This document shows, piece by piece, positions 56,266-64,000 of a DNA stretch of 64,000 bases. The notes under the pieces are model-generated. The model was not told where the DNA came from. It ran no database searches and saw nothing but the letters and a program-made list of their open reading frames with translations. Every line of letters begins with the position of its first letter. Positions within the stretch are counted from its first letter, which is position 1. The stretch lies in assembly GCA_020974905.1 (NCBI GenBank), contig CP087563.1:3162001-3226000 (forward strand), given 5' to 3'. Source of the DNA: Planctomycetes bacterium syqfu (GTDB lineage: Bacteria; Planctomycetota; Phycisphaerae; Phycisphaerales; Phycisphaeraceae). The position numbers and the translations under genes were made by a program.

Positions 56266-56417
56266 ATTGAGTTGTTCTCGTTCGTTCAAACGAGACGCAT
56301 ATATTAGCAATTCATCTTGGCCTTGCAAGTTCATGAGACCAAAAAATTCTGACAATTTCCTTCAAGCTACTCGATTTGCATCCAACCACACTTCTCGTTA
56401 GTGTCTTGGGCAACCAG

Positions 56418-56680
56418 ACAGGTGCTCAAAGTACAAGATATTGTGCTTGACTGAAAAGGGAAGCAAGGTGCGTTGGACTGAAAATGTCCGACAAGGCCTT
56501 CGCGGACGCGCCGCCGTAGGGGTTTGGAAAGGTGATTTTTTACCTTTCACGGTTACAAAGATGCCACTGGTGAATCGTGCAATGCGATTGACTGGGAAGG
56601 CTGGTGACTGCCGAACCTGAGCCGGAAGACCTGCCCGTTTGGACGAGTGTTGTGTCCTCGCGTATTGGGACGAACTCGGG
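56418..56680 (+). ncRNA. Cobalamin riboswitch 1 (upstream of the pseudopilin gene)
   Basis: Recognisable cobalamin-aptamer elements in order are AAAAGGGAAGC, a GC-rich hairpin with GCGGACGCGCC, GCCACTGG, GGGAAGGCTGG, and the B12-box tail GAGCCGGAAGACCTGCC at 56619-56635. A hairpin with GTCC/GGAC stem follows. A second hairpin (56839-56857) lies just before the Shine-Dalgarno AGGGAG. Binding of adenosylcobalamin is expected to repress translation of the gene at 56869. Confidence 0.88.
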
Positions 56681-56838
56681 CCAAGCCAGGTATTCATGCC
56701 CCGGACTACCCTTGAACTTGCCACCCCCTGAAGTAGTGTGCCAGCAAAATGATCGCTGAGTACTCTCGATGGGAATTGCCCGATTTCATCCTGCAAGCTG
56801 TTACGTGATGGGCCGGTTTTCAAACCATCACGGGGCAG

Positions 56839-56863
56839 GTCCTGCGCGAATCAGGACAGGGAG
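56839..56863 (+). promoter_or_regulatory. Expression-platform hairpin before the pseudopilin start
   Basis: Stem GTCCTG/CAGGAC around loop CGCGAAT, with the ribosome binding site AGGGAG starting on the next base. The same loop with a changed stem occurs at 59107-59127. Confidence 0.6.
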
Positions 56864-56868
56864 TTTTC

Positions 56869-57873
56869 ATGGCCGTTTCGTCTTCTCGTTCCTCGACACG
56901 TCGTCAATCACCGACATGGATCGCCAACGCATTTAACAGTTGGTGGCAAGGTCAGCGTCAACTGGCGTTAAGCCAATGGCGTTGGCGGATGCTCAAACCC
57001 AAACGGGCATACGTGCCTGTGAGGTATCAAGCACCGTTTGTTCAGCGTCGGACGCCGCGTGCATTTACGCTCATTGAGTTACTGGTGGTCATCAGCATCA
57101 TCGCCCTGCTCATCGGCATACTCTTGCCATCACTTGCCATGGCCAAACGCAGCGCCGAGTCCGCTCAATGCAAGAGCAATATCCGATCACTGGCAACGGT
57201 GAACATTGCCTATGCCACGGACAACAAACAGTATTTCGTCCCCGCAGCATTCGACGAGATGGCCAACCTTCAGCGCTGGCATGGCAACCGCAAAACCACA
57301 TCCGATGCCTTCGATCCCAAGATCGGCCGCTTAGCCAGTTACCTGGATAAACAAGGCGAAACCAAGAAATGCCCGACACTGCGTCACTACCAGGACTCGG
57401 ACCCCGGTGCATGGGGAACAACCTACGAAGCAGGCAGTGGTGGCTACGGCTATAACCATCAATACATCGGCGGACGCTACGATCTTGCAGGCTACGGTGC
57501 AGCGTCCAAACTCACCGCACGCATTGATGATGTCTACTCCCCCACCCAAACCGTCATGTTCACCGATGCAGGTAATTACAACACCGTCGATGGTTCATTG
57601 TCTCTGATCGAAAACTCCTTTGCCTGGTCCCCGCACTATGTCGACAGTGGCATCGTCGATCCCTGGGGCAGCTTCCAGCCCACACCCACGACGCACTTCC
57701 GACACAACGGCCAGACAGCCAACGTTGCCTGGGTGGACGGGCATGTCGATGCATGGGAAATCGAACACTCCGCGGCACACTTATATCTGAGCACCGGCAC
57801 CGGCGAAGAAACCATGAAGTTTAATCTCGGTTGGTTCGGACCCACAACGGTTGAGTTTTACGATCTTTGGTGA
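56869..57873 (+). CDS. Pseudopilin-like protein under a cobalamin riboswitch
   Basis: 334 residues from ATG at 56869 with AGGGAG upstream. The N-terminal ~65 residues are unusually long and basic before the prepilin site ([16 protein letters not shown], cleavage expected before FTLIELLVV). A helical stalk follows (MAKRSAESAQCKSNIRSLAT), then a globular domain with Trp, Tyr and Gly, and the end motif RHNGQTANVAWVDGHVDAW. These motifs belong to planctomycete pseudopilin-like DUF1559-type proteins. Control by B12 suggests a role in cobalamin uptake or in a B12-sensitive process, which is new to me for this family. It ends with a strong terminator. Confidence 0.8.
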   Translation: MAVSSSRSSTRRQSPTWIANAFNSWWQGQRQLALSQWRWRMLKPKRAYVPVRYQAPFVQRRTPRAFTLIELLVVISIIALLIGILLPSLAMAKRSAESAQCKSNIRSLATVNIAYATDNKQYFVPAAFDEMANLQRWHGNRKTTSDAFDPKIGRLASYLDKQGETKKCPTLRHYQDSDPGAWGTTYEAGSGGYGYNHQYIGGRYDLAGYGAASKLTARIDDVYSPTQTVMFTDAGNYNTVDGSLSLIENSFAWSPHYVDSGIVDPWGSFQPTPTTHFRHNGQTANVAWVDGHVDAWEIEHSAAHLYLSTGTGEETMKFNLGWFGPTTVEFYDLW

Positions 57874-57975: not shown

Positions 57976-58015
57976 GACACACCGGCGAAGACAAACTTCG
58001 TCGGTGTGTCTTTTT
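57976..58015 (+). terminator. Rho-independent terminator after the pseudopilin-like gene
   Basis: A 15-bp stem GACACACCGGCGAAG/CTTCGTCGGTGTGTC, one G-T wobble, loop ACAAA, followed by TTTTT. It separates the pseudopilin transcript from the lipoprotein gene. Confidence 0.9.
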
Positions 58016-58118: not shown

Positions 58119-58583
58119 TTGTCAAAACTCATTTTCACTGTCACACTGACCATGCTTGTTCTGATGCAGCTGGGGTGTTCAAAATCGGATGATTCGACCC
58201 CAACCACATCAACATCGCAATCATCCAATCAATCAGCCGAAGAGACGATTCGCAATAACGTGCCGATGTTTGTTGACATGTTGCGTAAGCAGGGATTCAA
58301 AGCACAAGACACCAAAGTCGTTGAGCTTGATTTTGATATTGCAGACAAGTCTGTAGATAAAGCCAATGCACTCGCTGAATCGCTCAATCAATTGGGGTAC
58401 GAGGCGGAAGTTCTCTATTCTGACACAAAAATGACTCAACCCATTGTCACTGCCAAAACAACACCGATCGCTGTCAATCAAGAGGCATTGTCAAAACTGG
58501 TCGACGACATGATTGCCTTGGCCAAGAAGCACGGGAGCAGTTTGACCGGGTTTGCCATCCCCACGGACAAGATCACATTTTAA
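58119..58583 (+). CDS. Lipoprotein with RraB-like domain
   Basis: 154 residues from TTG at 58119, chosen because GGGGGAG lies 8 bp upstream; an ATG at 58101 has no such site. The N-terminus is a lipoprotein signal (LIFTVTLTMLVLMQLGCS). The exported part resembles the RraB ferredoxin-like fold (PMFVDMLRKQGFKAQDTKVV, FDIADKSVDKANALAESLNQ, LGYEAEVLYS). RraB inhibits RNase E in enterobacteria; an exported version must do something else. It lies between the two riboswitch-controlled units and has its own transcript. Confidence 0.65.
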   Translation: MSKLIFTVTLTMLVLMQLGCSKSDDSTPTTSTSQSSNQSAEETIRNNVPMFVDMLRKQGFKAQDTKVVELDFDIADKSVDKANALAESLNQLGYEAEVLYSDTKMTQPIVTAKTTPIAVNQEALSKLVDDMIALAKKHGSSLTGFAIPTDKITF

Positions 58584-58758
58584 GATTTACCAATATATCG
58601 TCTGTACAATTGCATCTCCCACCAACCCGAGTGATAGCAACACCTTGCTTAACACATTCAAGGTGACTGCCCAATGCACCGCTGTACTTTAACCACTAAC
58701 TTGGCAATTCATGCTTGCCATGTTGACCAGCCATCGCTAAATTAAGGCCAGTCAATTC
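58584..58758. other. Intergenic sequence before the second riboswitch
   Basis: No gene seen. It should carry the promoter for the receptor transcript, but I see no strong consensus. Confidence 0.3.
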
Positions 58759-59013
58759 AGGTTGCCTCTGTCTTTTTTGAAAGTCAGGGGCTGAAAAGGG
58801 AAGCGAGGTTAGTCGAATTTTCGATGAATCCTCCGCGGACGCGCCGCCGTGATGACCCGGTTTTCACTGACAAAACAGGTGAAAACAGCGTCTGGCAGTG
58901 ACCACTGACAAGCATGCAACGTGCCATGTCGGGAAGGTGCCAGACGACGGGCTAAGCCGGAAGACCTGCCTGTGATGACCGAGTGGTAGTCCTCGCGCTT
59001 TTGGGACGACTCG
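58759..59013 (+). ncRNA. Cobalamin riboswitch 2 (upstream of the BtuB-like receptor)
   Basis: The same elements as riboswitch 1 appear: CTGAAAAGGGAAGC, GCGGACGCGCCGCCG, GACCACTG, GGGAAGGTGCC and AAGCCGGAAGACCTGCC (58954-58970), then a hairpin with loop TCGCGC. The ribosome-binding-site hairpin is at 59107-59127. It precedes the TonB-dependent receptor, the usual target of B12 control. Confidence 0.9.
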
Positions 59014-59106: not shown

Positions 59107-59133
59107 GGTTCTGCGCGAATCAGAACCAGGGAG
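59107..59133 (+). promoter_or_regulatory. Expression-platform hairpin before the receptor start
   Basis: Stem GGTTCTG/CAGAACC with loop CGCGAAT; AGGGAG follows directly. Compared with 56839-56857 the stem differs by C-G to T-A exchange, keeping the pairing. Confidence 0.6.
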
Positions 59134-59142
59134 CTATATCGC

Positions 59143-61047
59143 ATGGTTCGTTTTTCCACTTTGTCCCGGTGCCTTTTGGCATCAACTCTCATCGCAAGTC
59201 CACTGTTAGCCCAAACCAATGCCGAATCGGAATCCGAGCAGGCAAAACCCAATCGGCCACAGGTCATCGTCACCGCAACCCGCATCGACACCGCCCAGGA
59301 AAATGTCGGTTCGTCCGTCACTGTCATCGACTCACAGCAAATTCAACAGCGACAGGATCAGGACATCGCAGATGTACTCTCCCATGTCCCGGGTGTTCAC
59401 GTGCGTCGTTCCGGTGGTCTGGGTTCGCAGGCAACGGTATTTATCCGTGGTGCCGAATCCGACCACACGTTGCTCCGCATTGACGGCATCAAACTCCACG
59501 ACGCCTCCTCCATTGGCAATACCGCAACCTTCGACTACCTGACCACTACGTCCATCGAACGCGTCGAAGTGCTGCGTGGTCCACAGTCTTCTCTTTACGG
59601 CTCCGAAGCCATGGGCGGCCTGGTCAACGTCTCCACCAAACGTGGCGATGGCCCCATCAATGGTTCCTACACCTTCGAAACCGGATCCTACCAAACCACC
59701 AGCCAGCAACTTTACATCGGTGGCGGAGATGACAGCTTCAACTACTCCCTGTCAGGCACACGTATCGACTCGGGGAATTTCTCATCAGCAACAACTGATG
59801 GTGAAGATGACCCCTATCGCAACTCAACCTTCCATGGTTTGATCGGGCTGACACCGGCTGACATGTTCGAGCTTGAACTGGTCTTCCACTTCACCAAAGC
59901 CGACACCGAAATCGACAGCACGTTCTATGACACCGATGCATACCAGACCATCTTCGAACAGTTTGCCTTCAAGGTTGAGCCCAGGTTCTACTTCCTTGAT
60001 GGTCAACTTGAAAGCAAGATTGCTTTCTCACTAAATCAAGTCCGTCGTGATACCAATGATGGTGCAAGTACGTACCTGCCCAGCGACTTCACAGGCCGCA
60101 ACTATGAAATCGATTGGCAAAACCAGTTGTTTATCAACGACAACAACACCCTCGTTTTCGGCATTGCCTACAACGAAGACCGTGGTCAATTTGCTTACAC
60201 CTCACCCTTCGGTAACTCCGACGAAACCTATACCTCCCACAGCTACAGTCTCTACATCCAAGACCAATGGCGAATCACCAATGACTTAACTGTGAACGCA
60301 GGCTTACGTTTTATCGATCATGAACAGTATGGCAGTGAAGTGACCTACCAACTGGCGGGGGCGTATATCCTGCCTTCAACCCAAACCATCTTCCGTGCCT
60401 CAGCAGGCACCGGCTTTAAGACCCCGTCTATCTCAGAAGTCTATGACTCGGGCAGCTTCGTCAACAATCTCAACCTCGAACCGGAAAAATCCATGGGGTG
60501 GGACATCGGCATCGAACAACCCCTGCTTGATGAGAAGCTGAGCGTTGGCGCGACCTTCTTCCAGAACACCATCGACGATCTGATCTTCTATGACAGCACT
60601 GCGTTCGTCGTTGAAAACATGGGTAAAGCACGCACGCAAGGCGTCGAAACCTTCATCCAATTCAAACCTGCCAAAGACCTCGCTGCGACGTTCAACTACA
60701 CTTACACCGACAGTGAAGTCCTCGACCCCAATGGCAGCTTCGGCCCGCAGGAAGGTAATCGTCTCTGGCGTCGTCCCCTGCACAGCTACAGCTTTGATCT
60801 GACCAAAGAACTCATCGAAGACAAAGCACAGGTCACGTTGTCTCTGCTCGGTGCATCAACCCGTGATGACAATGGTGGCAAAGCTGATTCGTATGTCATC
60901 GTTAATCTTGCAGGCAGTTATCAGGTCACCGACAACGTCGAAGTGTTCGGCCGCGTGATCAACCTTTTTAACCAACAGTACCAGGATCTCTACGGATACA
61001 ACGCTGCCGACGCCAGCGCGTACGCCGGCGTGAAGATCAATTTTTAA
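59143..61047 (+). CDS. btuB: TonB-dependent receptor, BtuB-like
   Basis: 634 residues, normal for a small-ligand receptor. A signal peptide (LSRCLLASTLIASPLLAQT) is followed by a TonB box region (RPQVIVTATRIDTAQENVGS). The plug domain has DIADVLSHVPGVHVRRSGGL, ATVFIRGAESDHTLLRIDGI and GSEAMGGLVNVSTKRGDG. A barrel with alternating aromatic strands follows, ending in YAGVKINF (terminal Phe). The cobalamin riboswitch and the following exbB-exbD-tonB genes support vitamin B12 transport across the outer membrane. Confidence 0.9.
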   Translation: MVRFSTLSRCLLASTLIASPLLAQTNAESESEQAKPNRPQVIVTATRIDTAQENVGSSVTVIDSQQIQQRQDQDIADVLSHVPGVHVRRSGGLGSQATVFIRGAESDHTLLRIDGIKLHDASSIGNTATFDYLTTTSIERVEVLRGPQSSLYGSEAMGGLVNVSTKRGDGPINGSYTFETGSYQTTSQQLYIGGGDDSFNYSLSGTRIDSGNFSSATTDGEDDPYRNSTFHGLIGLTPADMFELELVFHFTKADTEIDSTFYDTDAYQTIFEQFAFKVEPRFYFLDGQLESKIAFSLNQVRRDTNDGASTYLPSDFTGRNYEIDWQNQLFINDNNTLVFGIAYNEDRGQFAYTSPFGNSDETYTSHSYSLYIQDQWRITNDLTVNAGLRFIDHEQYGSEVTYQLAGAYILPSTQTIFRASAGTGFKTPSISEVYDSGSFVNNLNLEPEKSMGWDIGIEQPLLDEKLSVGATFFQNTIDDLIFYDSTAFVVENMGKARTQGVETFIQFKPAKDLAATFNYTYTDSEVLDPNGSFGPQEGNRLWRRPLHSYSFDLTKELIEDKAQVTLSLLGASTRDDNGGKADSYVIVNLAGSYQVTDNVEVFGRVINLFNQQYQDLYGYNAADASAYAGVKINF

Positions 61048-61096: not shown

Positions 61097-61729
61097 ATGA
61101 GCGAACTGTTTGAAAAAGGCGGACCACTGATGTGGCCACTACTCGCCTGTTCGCTTCTGGCGTTGACCGTGATTCTTGAAAGGCTTGCCTTTGGGGTCCG
61201 CCGGACGGTAGCACGTCGTCCTCAAGCCGCAAGCCAGATCATTCGTCTCGTCTCTGCCCAGAAGCGTGACGAGGCTTTAGGTATCGCCGAATCTCATCCC
61301 AAGTGTCCGCTGTGCTGCGTGCTTCATGAAGGCTTGAAGCACGCAGCTTCGGGCCGGGAGACCGAAGCGATGCAATTGGCAGCATCGCGTCAACTCAAAC
61401 TCGACAAACGCGGGATCAACATTCTCGACACCATTGTGACGGTCGCCCCTTTACTGGGGATTCTTGGCACGGTGATGGGAATCATTGACTCGTTTAACCT
61501 GCTAAGCGATGCGGGAATCCAAAACCCGCAGGCGGTGCTAGGTGGTATCGCCCAGGCGCTGATCACCACGGCCGCAGGTCTGACGGTCGCGGTGATCAGT
61601 CTGCTGCCGATGAATTATTTTCTGTCCAAGCTGCAGAAACAGGCGGAGTTGATTGCCGACTTTGCCACGCAGTTGGAACTTGCCCTCGCCAAACCTTCGG
61701 ATGATTCGGAGGTTAATGGTGGAAGTTAA
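61097..61729 (+). CDS. exbB: ExbB/TolQ-family proton channel protein
   Basis: 210 residues. The N-terminal membrane helix is seen in GGPLMWPLLACSLLALTVIL. The conserved helices read NILDTIVTVAPLLGILGTVM and ALITTAAGLTVAVISLLPMN. ExbB uses proton flow to drive TonB. It follows the receptor by 49 bp, and its end overlaps ExbD. Confidence 0.93.
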   Translation: MSELFEKGGPLMWPLLACSLLALTVILERLAFGVRRTVARRPQAASQIIRLVSAQKRDEALGIAESHPKCPLCCVLHEGLKHAASGRETEAMQLAASRQLKLDKRGINILDTIVTVAPLLGILGTVMGIIDSFNLLSDAGIQNPQAVLGGIAQALITTAAGLTVAVISLLPMNYFLSKLQKQAELIADFATQLELALAKPSDDSEVNGGS

Positions 61730-62144
61730 GACCGGTTTTGAAGACCGTAAAGCGCGCGTGGAATTCCTGCCACTCATTGATGTGGTGTTCTTGCTGCTGG
61801 TGTTCTTCGTCTATGCGATGTTGAGCATGGTGGTGCATCGTGGCATTGAAGTGTCGCTCCCCACCGGTGGTAGTGCACAAGTCAGTCGCAAGGATTACGT
61901 GAACATCACCATCAACGCACAGAATCAAATCAGTGTCGATGGTGTGGTCGTGACATTGGATCAAACGGTATCACAAGTTAAAAGCGCGATGTCGATGTTG
62001 GCAGGCGATGATCAGGAAACCCCGATTTTCATTGCCGGTGATCAGGCATCGGACCTTGGAATTTCATTGAAGGTGTTGGATCGACTGCGTGGTGCTGGAT
62101 ACAAGCGTGTGTCGTTTGAGTTGGAGCAGGAAAGACCGGAATGA
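61716..62144 (+). CDS. exbD: ExbD/TolR-family protein
   Basis: 142 residues from ATG at 61716, which has GGAGG upstream and overlaps exbB by 14 bp. The single membrane helix carries the critical Asp in EFLPLIDVVFLLLVFFVYAM. The periplasmic domain has YVNITINAQNQISVDGVVVT and TPIFIAGDQASDLGISLKVL. ExbD works with ExbB and TonB in energy transfer. The next gene overlaps by 4 bp. Confidence 0.92.
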   Translation: MVEVKTGFEDRKARVEFLPLIDVVFLLLVFFVYAMLSMVVHRGIEVSLPTGGSAQVSRKDYVNITINAQNQISVDGVVVTLDQTVSQVKSAMSMLAGDDQETPIFIAGDQASDLGISLKVLDRLRGAGYKRVSFELEQERPE

Positions 62145-62974
62145 AAACATTGTGGTACATCCTTGCCTTTGGGATCAGTGTGACGCTTCACGCCTCGTTG
62201 CTGTTCTTTGGTGACCCAACGCACACCGCTGAGGTGCCCCTGCAACAGGGACATGCCGCGGTGATGATTAATCTCGTTGCATCGGTCGACAGTCAGGCCA
62301 TGCCACGTCCATCGCAAACCGAGCCGACACCACCGCAGCAGACGATTCCCACTGAGATGGTTGAATCGATTCTTGCCCAGGATGTTGCACTTGCCGCGCC
62401 GGTGATAAACCCTGCAGACGCGGATTTACCTGCCATGACCGAACCGGTGATACGTGAGATGCAAACACAACGGTCGACGACATCCTTACCTGAAACATCG
62501 CATGAGATGATAATCAAGCACAACGTTGCGAAGATTGATGTATCGGAAGTTCAGGTCAACAAAAATCAACCGGTATGCGAAACAATTAAAAAGCAAACGG
62601 ACATTGAGAAATCGCAACAAACCGAGGCTCGATCTGTCTCGTCGTCAAATGAAGCAAACACATCTCCCCGACCTCAAGGCATTACCACCGAAGCTCGCAT
62701 ACCTGACTCCATCGATGATCTGGTTAGAACTTTTTATCCCTTGATCTATCGCAGACGTGGCGTTGAGGGAACGGTTCGGGTTGAAGTCAACATTGATTCA
62801 AACGGTAAAGCGAATCAGATTACCGTCCTCAAAAGCAGCGGTCACAAGTTGATGGATAAAGCTGCAATTAAAACCTGTCGCCAAATTCCATATCGACCTG
62901 CATTGAAAAACGGTCATCCAGTGGAATCAATCTTTTCTCATGACGTTGTCTTCCGTTTGCAAAGCGACTCGTAA
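62141..62974 (+). CDS. tonB: TonB-family energy transducer
   Basis: 277 residues. An N-terminal membrane anchor (MKTLWYILAFGISVTLHASL) is followed by a Pro/Gln-rich periplasmic spacer. The C-terminal TonB domain (about 195-270) reads YPLIYRRRGVEGTVRVEVNI, DSNGKANQITVLKSSGHKLM, CRQIPYRPALKNGHPV. It is the last gene of the cobalamin uptake operon and would couple ExbBD to the receptor. Confidence 0.9.
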   Translation: MKTLWYILAFGISVTLHASLLFFGDPTHTAEVPLQQGHAAVMINLVASVDSQAMPRPSQTEPTPPQQTIPTEMVESILAQDVALAAPVINPADADLPAMTEPVIREMQTQRSTTSLPETSHEMIIKHNVAKIDVSEVQVNKNQPVCETIKKQTDIEKSQQTEARSVSSSNEANTSPRPQGITTEARIPDSIDDLVRTFYPLIYRRRGVEGTVRVEVNIDSNGKANQITVLKSSGHKLMDKAAIKTCRQIPYRPALKNGHPVESIFSHDVVFRLQSDS

Positions 62975-63095: not shown

Positions 63096-64000
63096 ATGAG
63101 CGAGCAAAACGAGAACGTCGAAAAGGTTGTCATCATCGGTTCAGGGCCCGCAGGTTGGACCGCTGCGATTTACACGGCACGTGCGAACCTCGATCCGCTG
63201 GTGCTCGAAGGCGTCCCCAAGACCAGCCCGAGCATCATCCTCCCCGGCGGTCAGCTCATGCTCACCACTGAAGTCGAAAACTTCCCCGGCTATCCCGAAG
63301 GTGTTCAGGGCCCGCAGATGATGGAAGACATCAAGAAGCAGGCCCTGCGTTTTGAGACCCGCGTCAAGTCACTGGATGTCCTTAAATGTGATCTTTCCCA
63401 ACGTCCTTTTACGCTGGAACTCTCGGATAAGTCCACCATCAAGGCGCATAGCGTCATCGTTGCCACCGGCGCGACCGCTAACTGGTTGGGCCTGGAAAAC
63501 GAAATGCGTCTGGCTACCACCGGCGGTGGTGTGTCCGCCTGTGCAGTCTGTGATGGTGCGCTGCCCATCTTCCGTGACCAGCCCCTTGCGGTGGTCGGTG
63601 GCGGTGACAGTGCCATGGAAGAAGCCAGCTATCTCACCAAGTTTGCATCGAAGGTTTACATCATCCATCGTCGCGATGAGTTCCGCGCATCGAAGATCAT
63701 GGCCGATCGCGTGCTCAACAATCCCAAGTGCGAACCGGTCTGGAACAGCACCGTCGTCGACGTGCTCGGTGAAGACAAGATCACCGGCGTGAAACTCAAG
63801 AACACGCAAACCGGCGAAGAGTCCGAATTGCCAGTCAAGGGCTTGTTCATGGCCATCGGTCACACCCCTGCCACCGGCTTCCTGAACCCGGAACAAATCG
63901 AGTTAACGGAAAAGAAATTCCTCAAACTCACCGAAGGCCAGCGCAGCCTTACTTCCGTCGAAGGCGTGTTTGCTGCAGGTGACTGTGCAGACGCAACCTA
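63096..64000 (+). CDS. trxB: Thioredoxin reductase, 3' end outside the window
   Basis: About 301 residues are visible from ATG at 63096. The FAD loop is VVIIGSGPAGWTAAIYTARA, the redox-active Cys pair is in SACAVCDGA, and the NADPH loop is in LAVVGGGDSAMEEASYLTKF, followed by YIIHRRDEFRASKI. The end VEGVFAAGDCADATY matches the second FAD motif. Thioredoxin reductase keeps thioredoxin reduced with NADPH. Probably unrelated to the uptake operon. Confidence 0.95.
   Translation, partial: MSEQNENVEKVVIIGSGPAGWTAAIYTARANLDPLVLEGVPKTSPSIILPGGQLMLTTEVENFPGYPEGVQGPQMMEDIKKQALRFETRVKSLDVLKCDLSQRPFTLELSDKSTIKAHSVIVATGATANWLGLENEMRLATTGGGVSACAVCDGALPIFRDQPLAVVGGGDSAMEEASYLTKFASKVYIIHRRDEFRASKIMADRVLNNPKCEPVWNSTVVDVLGEDKITGVKLKNTQTGEESELPVKGLFMAIGHTPATGFLNPEQIELTEKKFLKLTEGQRSLTSVEGVFAAGDCADAT

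Follow-up and report, generated by a model that had tools for sequence, protein, structure and literature searches.

Introduction

Why should the gene of a pseudopilin stand directly behind a cobalamin (vitamin B12) riboswitch? The question is raised by a stretch of 64,000 nucleotides (nt) from Planctomycetes bacterium syqfu (contig CP087563.1, positions 3,162,001 to 3,226,000 of the forward strand), hereafter called the window, in which an open reading frame of 334 codons with a prepilin motif follows such a riboswitch. An initial annotation, made from the sequence alone, proposed that this pseudopilin helps to bind or import cobalamin, or that it stands in for a B12-dependent process. In this study, we show that the pairing of cobalamin riboswitch and pseudopilin recurs across related planctomycetes, in loci that often encode homologues of B12-binding proteins as well. 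Gene linkage strongly supports a role in B12 acquisition, and the protein of the window is probably a pseudopilin dedicated to the acquisition of cobalamin and produced under B12 scarcity. No description of a pseudopilin linked to a B12 riboswitch was found in the open-licence full-text literature; it may be described elsewhere. We know of no established purpose for the very large pseudopilin families of planctomycetes, and the linkage offers a testable ligand for one of their members.

A cobalamin riboswitch in front of a pseudopilin gene

The pseudopilin unit of the window consists of the following features:

56403..56652, + strand: cobalamin riboswitch aptamer (RF00174, 58.8 bits, whole model 1-189)
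56506..56510, + strand: aptamer L5 loop (ACGCG, from the cmscan alignment), proposed kissing partner of the CGCG-loop hairpins
56653..56672, + strand: aptamer-proximal hairpin TGTCCT[CGCGTATT]GGGACG
56839..56857, + strand: expression-platform hairpin with fixed loop and covariation, abutting the Shine-Dalgarno sequence
56858..56863, + strand: Shine-Dalgarno-like AGGGAG, identical in the genus mates G001 and G003
56869..57873, + strand: B12-linked pseudopilin, 334 residues, with basic leader of 65 residues, prepilin helix and large C-terminal domain (PF07963/TIGR02532)
57064..57081, + strand: FTLIEL of the prepilin cleavage/methylation motif (translation, PF07963)
57829..57873, + strand: pseudopilin family tail GWFGPTTVEFYDLW (alignment A1)
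57976..58010, + strand: intrinsic terminator followed by TTTTT, ending the unit (15-bp stem, -27.5 kcal/mol, z -6.59)

The riboswitch named in the initial annotation is borne out by the Rfam cobalamin model, which matches ahead of the pseudopilin with an E value of 5.1e-12, above its gathering score of 31.5. The layout of riboswitch followed by pseudopilin was likewise correct, and only the start of the stretch, placed at 56418, is to be moved to 56403. A second match on the same strand, again above the gathering score (58742-58987, 67.1 bits), precedes the neighbouring receptor unit; no third was found when the whole genome of 7,376,598 bases was searched with RF00174.

The prepilin leader, too, was read correctly: PF07963 and TIGR02532 both match above cut-off, beginning 65 residues after the start codon. 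The N-terminal extension in front of this motif is indeed unusually long and basic. Its start codon lies 5 nt past AGGGAG, and compared with G001 the leader shows 1, 3 and 15 differences at codon positions 1, 2 and 3, that is, mostly at third positions. A cleavage/methylation motif followed by a long hydrophobic helix (helix 8-58 of the modelled piece, its best-predicted part) identifies the protein as a member of the pseudopilin superfamily. It stays below the equivalog cut-offs of GspG (33.1 versus 88.85 bits) and ComGC (35.8 versus 75 bits), both of which match the N-terminal region only, and scans with Pfam and TIGRFAM-type profiles revealed no enzyme domain. In the family tail, G321 and G324 are invariant, and W322 and F323 are present in at least 90% of alignment A1, which comprises 24 riboswitch-linked pseudopilins including that of the window.

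Pseudopilins as such are common here, with at least 150 pseudopilin-like matches in the genome of the window. The A1 profile scores 379 bits on the pseudopilin of the window and 125 bits on the runner-up in the same genome. Since the A1 rows were picked as riboswitch-linked, ranking by this score is partly circular. Two observations escape this circularity. All 26 matches above 170 bits are riboswitch-linked, and two of them (G039, G058) stand outside A1. Among the 28 genomes with a linked pseudopilin outside A1, the linked protein is the best A1 match of its genome in 22, another protein is best in two (G014, G045), three give no match at 1e-20 (G047, G051, G059) and one (G055) is not among the matches listed.

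Linkage in related genomes and across the phylum

Linkage was determined in 61 genomes, namely that of the window, three of its genus and the rest of its family and order. A search with stricter filters, which lose weak riboswitches, detected 66 cobalamin riboswitches in 56 of them. Behind 55 of the 66, the A1 profile finds a same-strand pseudopilin whose start lies 10 to 3240 nt past the aptamer; by genome the linkage holds in 51 of 56, by genus in 41 of 46. From the density of pseudopilins, estimated on first-look candidates, 2.55 linked riboswitches of the 66 would be expected. As a control, thiamine pyrophosphate (TPP) riboswitches of the related genomes were inspected: none of 20 loci, counted out of 55 TPP matches, has a pseudopilin within about 4.4 kb downstream (one stretch being only 2.3 kb long). 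Five of the 11 riboswitches lacking a linked pseudopilin precede btuB (G000, G001, G003, G016, G049) and three end at contig ends (G025, G032, G033); one precedes PF01497, ATP-binding cassette (ABC) and FecCD genes (G005), and those of G015 and G051 carry an exported-protein family and no pseudopilin.

A second test was unselected for riboswitches. For it, the A1 profile was applied to 392 genomes sampled from the phylum (E<=1e-42, 6 candidates scored per genome); 39 matched, 32 of them with new family members, for all of which up to 6 kb of upstream sequence (less at contig ends) was scanned with Rfam. Of the 32, 21 are preceded on their own strand by a cobalamin riboswitch (8 of 18 stronger and 13 of 14 weaker matches); by genus the count is 20 of 23. 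The 11 misses comprise nine members in genus g109, that of G333 and that of G133, for which 1.1 kb of upstream sequence was available. In addition, 12 of 80 named relatives were scanned, and three have a riboswitch upstream: contigs of Chthoniobacteraceae (L109), Ca. Hydrogenedentota (L111) and Phycisphaerae (L113). Verrucomicrobiota are represented by L109 as their one named riboswitch-bearing contig. The association with riboswitches and B12 genes on which the initial annotation had staked its proposal recurs across the order, the phylum and single contigs of two other phyla.

In a quick tree of 107 pseudopilins, the protein of the window falls into a clade of 46 rows with a Shimodaira-Hasegawa-like approximate likelihood ratio (SH-aLRT) of 99. 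The clade holds 35 linked pseudopilins, 10 family members with no riboswitch found and the named relative L110, and spans Planctomycetota, Verrucomicrobiota and Hydrogenedentota. Other linked groups are separately supported. As the backbone is without resolution and the tree took in only 18 unlinked sequences from outside the family, there may have been several recruitments.

Partner proteins in the riboswitch loci

Exported proteins often lie between riboswitch and pseudopilin, many of them with PEP-CTERM or dockerin motifs. The commonest partner is a BtuH-like family, which 37 of the 66 loci contain; of the 80 named loci, L109, L111 and L113 alone have it. Apart from PEP-CTERM or dockerin tags and weak matches, no Pfam domain was matched in this family. 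Its profile A5 matches chain B of PDB entry 8blw (8blw_B) at residues 385-658 with an E value of 3.3e-15; the structure of BtuH2 itself is not among the A5 structure matches. The matched residues are the BtuH-homologous part of BtuG1: the publication on 8BLW describes a C-terminal extension of BtuG1, about 250 residues long and homologous to the cell-surface B12 binder BtuH2 (PMC10404256).

DUF4465 was found in seven of the 61 genomes, in all seven behind these cobalamin riboswitches (7 of the 66 loci). Six of them have it in the locus of the pseudopilin; in G032, the seventh, the locus is cut by the contig end. B12 binding is established for DUF4465 proteins, one of them from the planctomycete Mucisphaera calidilacus (PMC13398666); the text of that paper mentions neither pilins nor Planctomycetes by name. 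Two further exported families accompany the riboswitches, a tryptophan-rich one in 14 loci (alignment A7) and one in 8 loci (A6) which we call propeller-like from our reading of the sequence. For A6, kinship with BtuG is not claimed, as no solved structure matched convincingly (best E 0.37). Altogether, the loci of 42 of the 55 linked pseudopilins contain one or more of the four exported families, and those of the other 13 contain none.

The A7 family, whose members carry PEP-CTERM, occurs in L045, L048, L050, L055, L064-L066, L072, L079, L082, L084, L085, L095 and L113, often early in the operon; for the members in L050, L082 and L085, the Pfam scan gave nothing beyond PEP-CTERM.

Ties to cobalamin import and genomes with no TonB-dependent plug found

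Some loci join the pseudopilin to genes of cobalamin-import type. The locus of G115 (L288) runs from the riboswitch through DUF4465, BtuH-like (164 bits) and pseudopilin genes to those of a periplasmic binding protein (PF01497), an ABC ATPase and a FecCD permease, several frames overlapping slightly. G182 (L218, L289) has riboswitch, BtuH-like (152 bits), DUF4465 and pseudopilin, and in G305 (L226, L284) CobQ-like, CobT-like, PF01497 and FecCD genes come after the riboswitch and the pseudopilin. In Ca. Hydrogenedentota (L111:3796-6870), a BtuH-like protein and a pseudopilin are encoded in a single frame of 1024 codons behind the riboswitch; an assembly error is possible there. The pseudopilin is in this way linked in the genome both to B12-binding and to B12-transport genes.

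Beyond the pseudopilin unit, the window has an RraB-domain gene and then a second unit with a cobalamin riboswitch:

58119..58583, + strand: small lipoprotein-like gene with RraB domain (PF06877), flanked by the terminator of the pseudopilin unit and the second riboswitch
58742..58987, + strand: second cobalamin riboswitch, btuB unit (RF00174, whole model 1-189)
59107..59127, + strand: hairpin before the btuB Shine-Dalgarno sequence, loop identical to that of the pseudopilin hairpin, stem compensated
59143..61047, + strand: BtuB-like TonB-dependent receptor (TIGR01779, PF00593, PF07715)
61097..61729, + strand: ExbB (PF01618)
61653..62144, + strand: ExbD (PF02472), true start probably further in
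62141..62974, + strand: TonB (PF03544)
63096..63998, + strand: thioredoxin-reductase-like frame, read from sequence; its relatives match Pyr_redox_2

The neighbouring receptor with ExbB, ExbD and TonB had been recognised in the initial annotation, and the domain matches together with its own riboswitch agree. TIGR01779 is the top match of the receptor, with 289 bits against a cut-off of 599.7.

A BtuB-like receptor above 270 bits is rare in the related genomes (6 of 61; 3 of the 51 pseudopilin carriers). A TonB-dependent plug was not found in 32 of the 61 genomes (27 of the 48 that are at least 90% complete), and a linked pseudopilin is present in 27 of these 32; the remaining five comprise two genomes without a riboswitch found and three whose loci are cut by contig ends. 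Weaker matches to TonB receptors exist in more genomes, 27 of 61 in all, so that other receptors could still take up B12 in those. The MetH activation domain is present in 57, FecCD in 60 and a secretin in 60 of the 61 genomes. The linkage bears on how bacteria that seem to need B12, as the MetH domain suggests, but often have no TonB-dependent plug found, could obtain it.

A fixed-loop hairpin before the start codon

Both units of the window share one 5' layout, GTCCTG[CGCGAAT]CAGGAC-AGGGAG-N5-ATG before the pseudopilin and GGTTCTG[CGCGAAT]CAGAACC-AGGGAG-N9-ATG before btuB. A hairpin with the strict loop CGCGAA[TC] and a stem of at least 4 pairs was found within 420 nt of 27 of the 66 riboswitches, and in none of three control regions for which 60 to 64 of the 66 loci were long enough. 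Three of the 27 sit in the first bases past the aptamer. In the remaining 24 (19 distinct), which were aligned, the loop is the selection criterion and hence not free to vary; 99.1% of cells pair, 5 of the 6 pairs are changed on both sides, and the covariation score is 0.585, whereas shifted pairings reach no more than 0.19.

Another CGCG-loop hairpin lies immediately past the aptamer in 52 of the 66 riboswitches; in a control window placed 1.5 kb downstream, which 63 of the 66 loci reach, 5 loci have one. A looser search for the distal hairpin returned 57 of 66 but 20 in the control, so the strict-loop figures are the more trustworthy. In the loose search, proximal and pre-start hairpins occur together in 47 of the 66 riboswitches. 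CGCG is its own complement, and both hairpins may pair with L5, perhaps competing in the switch.

Neither the stretch from aptamer to start codon as a whole nor the piece with the hairpin before the ribosome-binding site (z -0.76) folds better than shuffled sequences. The case for this hairpin is accordingly made by covariation and the fixed loop, which link the expression platform structurally to the pseudopilin gene. As the covarying hairpin directly abuts the Shine-Dalgarno sequence, the start codon of the pseudopilin is most likely the regulated one, and the leader of 65 residues belongs to the gene. Judged from this sequence arrangement, B12 would repress the pseudopilin.

Discussion

The first of the two proposals in the initial annotation, that the pseudopilin helps to bind or import cobalamin, is the best explanation of the linkage to homologues of B12 binders, of the operon in L288 and of the many genomes in which no TonB-dependent plug was found; that the pseudopilin itself carries out binding or import is the part that we infer. 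When cobalamin is bound, the aptamer probably lets L5 kiss the CGCG-loop hairpin ahead of the pseudopilin, which would hide the ribosome-binding site. When it is scarce, the prepilin would be made, processed and built into a fibre resembling those of type II secretion or type IV pili. This fibre may display or pull in its cargo, either corrinoid itself or BtuH-like and DUF4465 surface proteins loaded with it, and the cargo would move toward an outer-membrane secretin and then be handed over to a periplasmic BtuF-BtuCD importer. Cobalamin would be both the regulator of the system and its proposed cargo. On the best reading, the pseudopilin often works where BtuB is absent: in relatives without TonB receptors it may take over the outer-membrane job of BtuB, and in the genome of the window it would work beside BtuB-TonB. 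If it moves or presents cobalamin, BtuB would be dispensable for bringing B12 through an outer membrane.

Several observations weigh against this explanation. The AlphaFold2 model of the pseudopilin from residue 61 onward (14-row alignment A2) is weak, with a mean predicted local distance difference test score (pLDDT) of 60.6; 110 of 274 residues are below 50, nearly all in the C-terminal domain, and no B12 site was identified. The pseudopilin unit of the window has no gene for a B12-binding partner beside the pseudopilin, and with BtuB-TonB in the same genome the pseudopilin is not the sole candidate route there; some TonB-dependent plug was found in 24 of the 51 carriers. The labels BtuF-, BtuD- and BtuC-type denote general Pfam families that also cover other importers. 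In nine g109 genomes and in G333, about 6 kb of sequence ahead of the family member yielded no riboswitch, and L110 has the family tail motif with no riboswitch found upstream. Finally, the tree fits one family and several recruitments alike.

The main rival sees in the protein a minor pseudopilin of type II secretion, specific for its substrates, which exports or places the co-encoded B12 binders and never handles cobalamin, so that it would serve B12 uptake indirectly. The frequent sharing of loci with the four exported families would follow naturally from such a task, the abundance of pseudopilins in the genome fits one helper per cargo set, and secretins are nearly universal in the genomes studied. 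This reading is, however, weakened by loci in which the pseudopilin stands alone behind the riboswitch. Thirteen of the 55 loci yielded no member of the four families, and in six of these (that of the window, two of genus mates, two in G005 and one in G019) the pseudopilin begins 10 to 217 nt past the aptamer; in the window it is alone between riboswitch and terminator. The other seven provide no argument against an export helper, since their gap of about 1 kb fits an unclassified gene. On balance we consider it unlikely that the role of the pseudopilin ends with export.

Pilins commonly mediate attachment, and a fibre made under B12 limitation might act as an adhesin that binds the cell to B12-producing neighbours or particles, outside any uptake. 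The pseudopilin of L288, however, sits between B12-binding genes and BtuF-, BtuD- and BtuC-type genes, and that of L111 shares its frame with a BtuH-like protein. Both point to the uptake path rather than to attachment, which we regard as quite improbable.

That an abundant kind of protein came to stand behind a riboswitch by chance would be suggested by the number of pseudopilins in the genome, but at the level of association such a bystander is refuted by the density estimate, the TPP control and the riboswitch-unselected test, and it deserves next to no credence. B12 riboswitches elsewhere do control B12-independent isozymes, and the second proposal of the initial annotation, a replacement of a B12-dependent process, followed this pattern; it is hardly credible for a protein with no enzyme domain found, whose annotated neighbours include B12-binding, transport and cobamide-synthesis genes and no B12-independent isozyme.

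The acquisition system that we favour resembles known systems in part. Bacteroides BtuB-BtuG-BtuH-BtuJ loci likewise have a B12 riboswitch and surface B12 binders of the BtuH and DUF4465 (BtuJ) families and BtuF-, BtuD- and BtuC-type genes in the operon, as here in at least one carrier, L288 (PMC10404256, PMC13398666). In contrast to them, a pseudopilin occupies the operon here, and a strong BtuB-like receptor is present in only three carriers; many of the surface proteins here have PEP-CTERM or dockerin motifs, whereas those of Bacteroides are lipoproteins. The E. coli-type system of BtuB-TonB-ExbBD and BtuFCD has its likeness in the neighbouring riboswitch-controlled unit of the window and no counterpart to the pseudopilin unit. 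Competence pseudopili of the ComGC/ComP type are prepilin-type fibres that pull an external molecule in by way of a secretin. The ComGC profile matches the N-terminal region of the pseudopilin of the window, but the match covers only about 60 residues at the start of the mature protein, and the proposed ligand differs, being a vitamin or its binding proteins, as does the control by a cobalamin riboswitch. Within the phylum, pili-like fibres of crateriform structures are reported to bind gold-labelled dextran before its uptake (PMC5394234). They set a precedent for nutrient-binding fibres in planctomycetes. We know of no link between crateriform fibres and B12 or the pseudopilin family.

A bolder model can be put forward tentatively, as possible rather than probable. 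In many planctomycetes and some relatives, a B12-repressed pseudopilus would load cobalamin from tethered binders of the BtuH and DUF4465 types and pull it through the secretin to BtuFCD, without any TonB-dependent receptor. By extension, the many other pseudopilins in each genome may serve as capture fibres for particular substrates within a single, general system of nutrient uptake.

Further observations

In the genus mates G001 and G003, fewer than 200 nt separate the pseudopilin from the second riboswitch, leaving no space for the RraB gene. A thioredoxin-reductase-like gene is the next gene after the pseudopilin in the relatives L053, L054, L064, L067 and L087. The g109 loci L222-L225, L227-L229, L231 and L232 keep a strong family pseudopilin, and the roughly 6 kb ahead of it show no cobalamin riboswitch; at the two g109 loci checked downstream (L285, L286), two similar genes come after the pseudopilin. 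At one pseudopilin locus, the cobalamin riboswitch is itself preceded, at a distance of about 1.6 kb, by a TPP riboswitch (L238:1333-1432). The genome of the window further contains two pseudopilin copies about 69 kb apart (G000:C1:2895160-2895801 and 2964242-2964883), which are identical over the compared protein stretch and may derive from a recent duplication.

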